A program made the translations under genes and the position numbers. Shown piece after piece: positions 3,400-39,077 of a DNA stretch of 40,930 nucleotides (positions within the stretch are counted from its first letter, which is position 1; each line of letters opens with the position of its first letter). Source of the DNA: Alkalimonas sp. (GTDB taxonomy: Bacteria; Pseudomonadota; Gammaproteobacteria; Enterobacterales; Alteromonadaceae); contig JAFIFR010000004.1 in NCBI GenBank assembly GCA_020831935.1, positions 1-40,930 on the forward strand, in the 5' to 3' direction. A model generated the notes under the pieces. It worked only from the letters and a program-made list of their open reading frames with translations. It did not search any database and was not told where the DNA came from.

Positions 3400-4121
3400 A
3401 GTTTTCCCCTCAGAGCCAGCCACAGGTAGTTGAGCAGTCGTCCCTGCCGACCAAGACGACTGGGCTGTTTGCACAAGCGATAAGCCCACTCCAGGTGCAA
3501 GCGACACCACAAGTCAGGCGCGCGCTTGACCTGACCGGTAAAAACATCAAAACTGCCTCCTACCCCCATAAAAAAACAACCGGGCAACTCAGGTCGTAGC
3601 CGCTCAATCAGCCGCTCCTGCCGGGGCGAACCCATCGCCACCGGAATGACTTTGGCCCCACTTTGCCGGATGTCGGCCAATAATTGCTGTTCATCCTCAA
3701 AGTAACCATCGGTTGCGCCCACCACCGGCACTTGCTGTTGCTGCAACTTGTCGCGTGTTTGTGCCAGCACATTCGCCTTTGCCCCCACCAGATAAACCGG
3801 CACACCAAAGCGGGCACAACGCAGCATCAGTTGCTGCCATAGCTCACAGCCTGGGATCCGTTGCAGTGGCTGTTGCAAACGACGGCGCATCAGCATCACC
3901 ACCCCGATGCCATCGGCATAACGAATGCTGGCGTTGCCCAGCATCCGGGCAACCTCTGGCTCAGCGCGTGCGGCCATCACCTTTTCGGGGTTGATGGCTA
4001 TGGCGGAGCCCGCCAGTACCTGGCCTTCGTGATCGATAATGTGTTCCAACAGCTGCTGCTGATGCTGCCAGGCCCCGACCTCAACCGGGCCGATGCAAAC
4101 AGAAGCAATGGGTGAGTTCAT
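3396..4121 (-). CDS. WecG/TagA/CpsF family glycosyltransferase
   Basis: INPEKVMAARAEPEVARMLGNASIRYADGIGVV, YLVGAKANVL, VAMGSPRQERLI, FFMGVGGSFDVFTGQVKRAPDLWCRLHLEWAYRL are classic WecG/TagA motifs; ATGA overlap with upstream gene. Confidence 0.95.
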   Translation of the reverse strand: MNSPIASVCIGPVEVGAWQHQQQLLEHIIDHEGQVLAGSAIAINPEKVMAARAEPEVARMLGNASIRYADGIGVVMLMRRRLQQPLQRIPGCELWQQLMLRCARFGVPVYLVGAKANVLAQTRDKLQQQQVPVVGATDGYFEDEQQLLADIRQSGAKVIPVAMGSPRQERLIERLRPELPGCFFMGVGGSFDVFTGQVKRAPDLWCRLHLEWAYRLCKQPSRLGRQGRLLNYLWLALRGKL

Positions 4122-37430: not shown

Positions 37431-38312
37431 CTAAAAATCAATACTGGCGTGTTCTAATGCTTGTTCGATACCGGCTTGGTGAATTGGTTCCAGCGTCGTC
37501 AAGGGTAGGCGAACAAAATCAGAGGTAATGAGCCCCATATGGGCAAGTGCCCACTTAACAGGGATGGGGTTGGCCTCAACGAACAACTCCTGATGCAATG
37601 GCTGCAGTTGAGCGTCCAGACTGCGGCACCGATCGGCATTCTGCACTGCAGCAGCCTGCACAACGGCAGCAATCTGAGCCGGTGCCACATTGGCCGTCAC
37701 TGAAATGACGCCATGACCCCCGGCCAGCAAAAACTCTGCACTGCTGCCATCATCGCCACTAAATAAAGCAAAGTCAGCCGGGCAGCAGTCTTTTAAATCC
37801 TGCAACCGCTCCAATGAACCGGTAGCTTCTTTGATACCGACAATATTCGGTACTTTGGCAAGCTCTGCCACAGTTTCCGGCAGTAAGTCGACCGCCGTGC
37901 GGCCAGGCACATTGTACAATAGAATAGGCTTATCGGTCGCGGCAGCAATGGCTTCAAAGTGCAGCTTCATGCCCTTTTGCATTGGCTTGTTGTAGTAAGG
38001 CGTTACGGTTAAAAAGCCATCGACAGGCAAGTTTGCCAACAGCCTGGTTTTGTCGACCGCAGCTTTGGTACTGTTGGCACCATTGCCGACAATGACCGGA
38101 ATGGCACCCGCCACTTGCTGACAGACTGCCTTGACAATGGCAATCTGTTCATCCTGCTCCAGCGTAGCGGCTTCAGCTGTAGTACCAAGCACCACCAAGC
38201 CGTCGGTTCCGGCTTCCAAATGAAAGCGAACCAATCGCTCCAAGCTGGCAAAATCAATCTCACCCGATGCCAGCATGGGGGTGATCAAAGCCACATAACT
38301 GCCTTTCAACAT
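37431..38312 (-). CDS. dapA: 4-hydroxy-tetrahydrodipicolinate synthase
   Basis: MLKGSYVALITPML, LVVLGTTAEAATL, GNGANSTKAAV, VTPYYNKPMQKGM, LYNVPGRTAVDLLPET, GIKEATGS, FSGDDGSSAEFLLAGGHGVISVTANVAP. Start set at the internal ATG. Confidence 0.97.
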   Translation of the reverse strand: MLKGSYVALITPMLASGEIDFASLERLVRFHLEAGTDGLVVLGTTAEAATLEQDEQIAIVKAVCQQVAGAIPVIVGNGANSTKAAVDKTRLLANLPVDGFLTVTPYYNKPMQKGMKLHFEAIAAATDKPILLYNVPGRTAVDLLPETVAELAKVPNIVGIKEATGSLERLQDLKDCCPADFALFSGDDGSSAEFLLAGGHGVISVTANVAPAQIAAVVQAAAVQNADRCRSLDAQLQPLHQELFVEANPIPVKWALAHMGLITSDFVRLPLTTLEPIHQAGIEQALEHASIDF

Positions 38313-38411
38313 GCGCAAAATATCCCACACTCTCTCAAATTCGTTTCGGGCGCCTATGTTAAAGACTGCGCCTCTTAAACACAAGGTTCGCTTGAAAACA
38401 TCTGACAGCTC

Positions 38412-38490
38412 TAAGGCGTGTTGACCTTTGCCGTTTGTTTTTGCAGCTGCTTGGCTGGTATTTATACAAGGCAAAGATCAACACGCCCTA
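38412..38490. mobile_element. Candidate MITE-like element with 21-bp imperfect terminal inverted repeats
   Basis: TAAGGCGTGTTGACCTTTGCC (38412-38432) and GGCAAAGATCAACACGCCCTA (38470-38490) are inverted with 19/21 matches; 37-nt spacer; TA at both ends; no internal ORF. Confidence 0.55.
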
Positions 38491-38555
38491 CATTCGCATG
38501 ACAGTAAGCAGTGTTATGGTACACTTAGCCACCATTTTTACGGACAGGATCTGTC

Positions 38556-39077
38556 ATGACGCAACATCTGGTGGTGACAGCCATTGGTACCGACCGTACG
38601 GGTCTGGTAAGCCAACTGGCAAGGCTGGTCACCGATTGTCAATGCAATATACTCGACAGTCGCATGGCTATTTTTGGTCATGAGTTAACCTTTATCATGT
38701 TACTGGCCGGTGACCCCAGTGCCATCAGTCGCGTGGAACATCTGCTCCCTAGCCTGGGCCTGGAGCTGGATTTGCTGACCATGATGAAACGCACGCCAGC
38801 ACATGAGCTCCCGCCGGTGGCCAGTCACGCTGTGCTGAGCTATCAGGGACCAGACAAGGTTGGAACCTTGCGTGCTATAACCGCCTTGCTGGCCCAACAT
38901 CAGGTCTCCATCACAGCTTTACGCTCCAAAACCGTTACCAAAGATGATGGCCAGTGGATGGAAGCCAGCATGACGTTGCAGTTTTTGCACGACTACCCGG
39001 TCTCAGAGATCAAACAAGCAGTGATGCAGTTGCTGCACCAGCTGCAGCTCAGTGGCGAATTCAGTGCTCAAATTTAA
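38556..39077 (+). CDS. gcvR: Glycine cleavage system transcriptional repressor-like (GcvR), two ACT domains
   Basis: HLVVTAIGTDRTGLVSQLARLVTDCQCNILDSRMAIFGHELTFIMLLAG...YQGPDKVGTLRAITALLAQHQVSITALRSKT; located beside dapA as in E. coli. Confidence 0.9.
   Translation: MTQHLVVTAIGTDRTGLVSQLARLVTDCQCNILDSRMAIFGHELTFIMLLAGDPSAISRVEHLLPSLGLELDLLTMMKRTPAHELPPVASHAVLSYQGPDKVGTLRAITALLAQHQVSITALRSKTVTKDDGQWMEASMTLQFLHDYPVSEIKQAVMQLLHQLQLSGEFSAQI

Follow-up and report, generated by a model that had tools for sequence, protein, structure and literature searches.

Prokaryotic MITEs are short, non-coding, intergenic elements that have inverted ends, are flanked by a short target duplication, and form a stable hairpin (PMC10969869). 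The 79-bp element located between dapA and gcvR of an Alkalimonas MAG (positions 38412-38490 of the 40,930-nt stretch of DNA analyzed, hereafter the window; both TA included) resembles prokaryotic MITEs in all of these traits, but differs in having arisen, as argued below, by deletion within a larger, structured MITE. No prokaryotic MITE with the same ends was found in the literature searched. A second described system is the nearly precise excision of Tn10 and Tn5, in which palindrome-assisted deletion between short direct repeats leaves a stub. In comparison, the Alkalimonas process is inferred from natural loci, and its stubs are as short as 15-16 bp. Finally, the IS5-family ISs (NF033580, transpos_IS5_3) have TA-flanked terminal repeats like those of the MITE (TAGGGYGTGTTGATCTTT / TAGAGCGTGTTGATCTTT in the ~880-bp ISs of genomes G019 and G028). 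The window element has the terminal repeat in common with these ISs but not the interior, and it lacks a transposase.

The inverted repeat is as the initial annotation described it, with two 21-nt arms (38412-38432 and 38470-38490) that pair at 19 of 21 positions (90% complementary) around a 37-nt spacer. It is the sole inverted repeat recovered by a repeat search of 38200-38700. The left terminal inverted repeat (38412-38432, + strand) reads TAAGGCGTGTTGACCTTTGCC and differs from the family consensus TAGGGCGTGTTGAYCTTTG by one G-to-A change at position 3, while the right one (38470-38490, - strand) reads TAGGGCGTGTTGATCTTTGCC on its own strand. Both outer ends are TA, as previously noted, and comparison with an empty site in a sister species assigns 38412-38413 and 38489-38490 to the left and right copies of the TA target duplication, respectively. 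Within the window, the TIR motif matches only these two arms, in agreement with the single copy seen by eye. The element is overlapped solely by mechanical TTG-start open reading frames and has no coding capacity, again as first proposed. Among the flanking genes, dapA (37431-38312, - strand) is a clear assignment (TIGR00674, 344 bits versus a cut-off of 206), whereas the gcvR-like gene (38556-39077, + strand) is named on the basis of two ACT domains and a match to its best model, PRK11589, that falls below the cut-off (126 versus 267 bits). The distances given earlier were right: the element lies 99 nt from the ATG of dapA (38312) and 65 nt from that of gcvR (38556).

For the comparison among congeners, orthologous dapA-gcvR regions were gathered through a gcvR search. 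The genomes include the window's own assembly (G000; 3.05 Mb in 381 contigs, 81.5% complete), a sister Alkalimonas MAG that is the closest relative in the set (G003; GcvR 98% identical), and four further congeners (G001, G002, G004, and G005). Two contigs of G003 read CTC-TA-TTGCATGACA here, an empty site where TA occurs once, whereas the window reads CTC-TA-[75 bp]-TA-CATTCGCATGACA. The element is also absent from the site in the other four genomes, and thus from all five congeners examined. The net gain relative to the G003 empty site is 80 bp, 3 above the expectation for a clean TA duplication. Three additional bases (CAT) are present at the right flank of the element (window 38490-38504) and missing from the G003 empty site, such that the duplication is imperfect. 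The reciprocal case was also observed. G003 has a 72-bp element at C27 and a 79-bp element at C87, compared with empty sites in G000 at C276 and C131; the empty site for the 72-bp element is near a clean single TA, while that for the 79-bp element is less clean.

Related copies are present at other loci in G000 and its congeners. Those in G000 include an 87-bp copy (C258:35808-35894) and a partial copy that reaches a contig edge (C245:2-53). For the 87-bp copy, no clean empty site could be read in G002 or G005, in which the flanks are too diverged. The 79-bp element therefore combines terminal inverted repeats, presence/absence polymorphism with an empty site, occurrence at multiple unrelated loci, and a lack of coding capacity. 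Judging from these comparisons, it is recently inserted mobile DNA, a non-coding transposon remnant, rather than a fixed regulatory hairpin. The MITE-like insertion at a TA proposed in the initial annotation is borne out by the single-TA empty site in the sister species, the copies at other loci, and the ISs with the same ends described below. Neither pattern named there as evidence against it (occupancy of this locus in all relatives and nowhere else, or covariation pointing to a fixed regulatory hairpin) is seen; the element has no counterpart at this locus in five relatives and is present elsewhere.

The origin of the 79-bp form, which takes other genomes to recognize and was missed in the initial annotation, can be traced to a longer element. 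A full-length parent of 269 bp in G003 spans contigs C204 and C264, which appear to be the halves of one copy given that their overlap is identical, and another full-length copy lies inside C320. The spacer of the window element (38433-38469, + strand) corresponds to the left sub-terminal sequence of this parent, matching G003:C204 from position 3788. The 8-bp direct repeat GCAAAGGT sits at parent positions 60 and 250, and in-silico deletion of one GCAAAGGT together with the intervening sequence yields a product of exactly 79 bp. The junction predicted for this product, with one surviving copy of the repeat (here GCAAAGAT), is at 38471-38478 (+ strand) in the window. Mismatches to the predicted product number 3 of 79 in the window copy, 3 in G003:C87, and 9 in G002:C103, which also holds a 79-bp form. 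These observations are consistent with a two-step history. A MITE of ~269 bp with TAGGGCGTGTTGAYCTTTG ends would have entered a TA in a YTAR-type target, presumably with an IS5-family transposase acting in trans. A deletion from GCAAAGGT to GCAAAGGT, i.e., from the left sub-terminal side to the right terminal repeat, would then have dropped 190 bp to give 79 bp and left both terminal repeats intact. Based on sequence comparisons, we assign a probability of about 0.9 to the reading of this feature as a non-autonomous IS5-family MITE and an internally deleted form of a ~269-bp parent.

A variant of this reading alters the order of the steps and nothing else, such that the 79-bp form would be a separate mobile subfamily that reached the dapA-gcvR region as a unit, with no local deletion. 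This history is compatible with the two intact terminal repeats and with the fact that three species share the junction while carrying it at unrelated loci (the window, G003:C87, and G002:C103). However, given the 8-bp direct repeat, one junction is likely to arise independently more than once, and internal deletions do recur, as shown by the 87-bp form (C258) and the 72-bp form (G003:C27), whose junctions differ from that of the 79-bp form. The odds appear to be somewhat against a separate subfamily, yet it deserves serious consideration.

A different explanation is that the element is a fixed regulatory hairpin, or a bidirectional terminator or attenuator, of dapA or gcvR. Its position between divergent genes and its very stable fold may suggest such a role; compared with dinucleotide shuffles, the RNA fold has z-scores of -4.6 (+ strand) and -6.9 (- strand), and none of 200 shuffles was equally stable. 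However, the site is unoccupied in the five congeners examined and copies are found at unrelated loci, and the empty sites rule out a hairpin or terminator as a conserved feature. The element also lies outside both predicted promoters and the predicted transcripts. The predicted gcvR promoter (ATGACA-16-TACACT; 38498-38525, + strand) begins 7 nt past the right end, and its core is conserved in all aligned genus members. The candidate dapA promoter (TTGTGT-17-TAACAT; 38356-38384, - strand) is 27 nt past the left end, within sequence that is conserved across the six species; it was identified by eye and a stricter promoter scan did not recover it. The element thus falls in the interval separating the predicted promoters, neither of which it disrupts, and the suggestion in the initial annotation that it could alter either of them is unsupported by its position. 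Because both are spared, the insertion is probably neutral, with no function in dapA or gcvR. For a terminator, no T-run is found behind the long stem and the sole terminator-like match is a 5-bp stem within the spacer; together with the empty sites, this agrees with the earlier view that a terminator role is unlikely. Similarly, a regulatory RNA is disfavored by the lack of any Rfam match in the window except for a tRNA elsewhere. A regulatory origin is therefore highly improbable.

Regarding the transposon family, a total of 49 paired-end elements were collected from many genera, mostly Alteromonadales. Nearly all are TA-bounded, and the largest group is 266-273 bp in size. Where TA bounds an element at both ends, 75 of the 78 outer bases are pyrimidines (C 51, T 24, G 2, and A 1), indicating a YTAR target with a duplicated TA. 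The window copy matches YTAR on its left but not on its right, where the 3 extra bp lie. An IS with matching TIRs, which the initial annotation suggested looking for, does exist: G019 (eight transposase matches) and G028 (two) carry ISs of 881-884 bp that have the MITE ends and TA flanks, and in G075 the ends of an 878-bp IS are related. The IS ends are TAGAGCGTGTTGATCTTTG in G028 and TAGGGCGTGTTGATCTTTT in G019, both associated with an IS5 transposase (NF033580, 275.9 bits versus a cut-off of 110; Pfam DUF4096 and DDE_Tnp_1). In G019:C1, the 884-bp IS5-family IS with MITE ends has seven near-identical copies and one partial copy (e.g., L121 and L128). In addition, G001:C9:59674-60072 (L126) is the locus of a decayed IS5-family IS of 887 bp with two in-frame stops and related ends, which is a possible former mobilizer. 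A close transposase was found in 7 of 99 relatives, compared with 32 of 99 for the ends. A matching transposase was not found in G000, although its absence should not be concluded from an incomplete MAG (81.5% complete, 381 contigs). Repeats tend to drop out of such many-contig assemblies.

The initial assignment to Tc1/mariner/IS630 was based on TA flanks, which such MITEs do have in common with the window element but which by themselves are not diagnostic of IS630, and an origin from that group is now extremely unlikely because the ISs found with these ends carry IS5-family (NF033580) transposases and the copies are in YTAR targets with an outer C or T rather than at a bare TA.

Beyond these MITEs, the Alkalimonas genomes also hold one-ended copies of the terminal repeat (tips). 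Five tips are insertions of 15-16 bp relative to empty orthologous sites. Four are in G003 (C46:4725-4741, C160:1602-1616, C277, and C45:5740-5754) and correspond to empty sites in G000, with that in C45 also facing an empty site in G005. The fifth (G000:C364:20795-20809) corresponds to an empty site in G005, and a further tip was listed at G000:C214:38220-38234 (tip loci L190, L102, L196, L194, L112, and L113). Several tips read TA-GGGCGTGTTGACC-TA, often as TA-GGGCGTGTTGACC(T)-TA, and TA-GGGCGTGTTGACC-TA is the expected product of a CCT-to-CCT deletion between the terminal repeats (parent positions 14 and 266). These patterns suggest that the tips are probably deletion scars of MITEs and represent the final stage of the same decay, although direct insertion of a tip may provide another explanation. 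The exact scar TAGGGCGTGTTGAYCTA was found in only G003 among the 99 relatives, and tips should not be taken as general.

At G003:C204:3772-3802 and the start of C264, the full-length MITE adjoins a tip, while the orthologous G000:C329:8093-8110 has the tip only. The tip appears to be older than the full-length insertion at this locus; a tandem-insertion reading was considered and set aside.

The parent elements have an internal organization that the window copy has lost. An alignment of 22 diverse full-length parent copies (e.g., L198:555-823, L048:1501-1768, and L065:1501-1767) supports a fold of 89 pairs in 10 helices, in which 93.5% of the cells are paired and 62 of the 89 pairs have changed on both sides. 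The covariation score of this fold is 0.439, whereas shuffles score 0.155 (sd 0.008) and slid controls do not exceed 0.087. Deriving the structure from this very alignment gives it an advantage over the slid versions, and the relatedness of the sequences inflates the shuffle test, yet the difference is very large. The parent alignment thus shows a strongly covarying, cloverleaf-like fold, with a terminal-repeat stem, two long arms, and a small central hairpin. In the terminal-repeat stem, covariation is expected in any case, since both ends have to be recognized by a single transposase. Watson-Crick pairs account for 1765 cells, compared with 65 G-T pairs and 38 A-C mismatches. The scarcity of wobble pairs suggests that the fold is maintained as DNA (hairpin or cruciform) rather than as RNA. 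Because G-T and A-C are both few beside Watson-Crick pairs, there are hints of a DNA-level cause, which may be selection on the hairpin or template-switch correction of palindromes.

When a covariance model was built from the left arm, 54 of 369 gammaproteobacterial genomes contained matches (E<=1e-5, mostly over the full model), with E-values that are rough and may in some cases be inflated by palindromic composition. At one of these loci (L261, near 1501), the element is 270 bp long and its perfect 22-bp ends TAGGGCCTGTTAACACTATCCC are bounded by TA, while the 79-bp copy of the window, with its interior lost, has no match. Neither the element nor its parents matched an Rfam family at gathering thresholds, and relaxing the cut-off to E<=0.1 added nothing beyond an unrelated t44 RNA and two weak hits in the flanks. 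A description of the family or its end sequence was likewise not found in the literature searched. The insertion itself is ordinary, while the parent family is apparently widespread and undescribed. A plausible but tentative reading, somewhat less likely than not, places the stub in an undescribed superfamily of non-autonomous elements, ~250-270 bp in length, that extends across Gammaproteobacteria, with lineage-variable outer ends and a cloverleaf-like interior kept as DNA by compensatory changes.

The strong covariation inside a non-coding element that lacks a transposase prompts one to ask which selective pressure is behind it. Within one genus, a decay series can be read from 269 bp to 87, 79, and 72 bp, and further to TA-flanked tips of 15-16 bp. 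This series makes the palindrome-assisted deletion of mobile elements testable from natural loci. If such a superfamily exists, its palindromic build would explain both the frequent internal deletions and the one-ended stubs of 15-16 bp.
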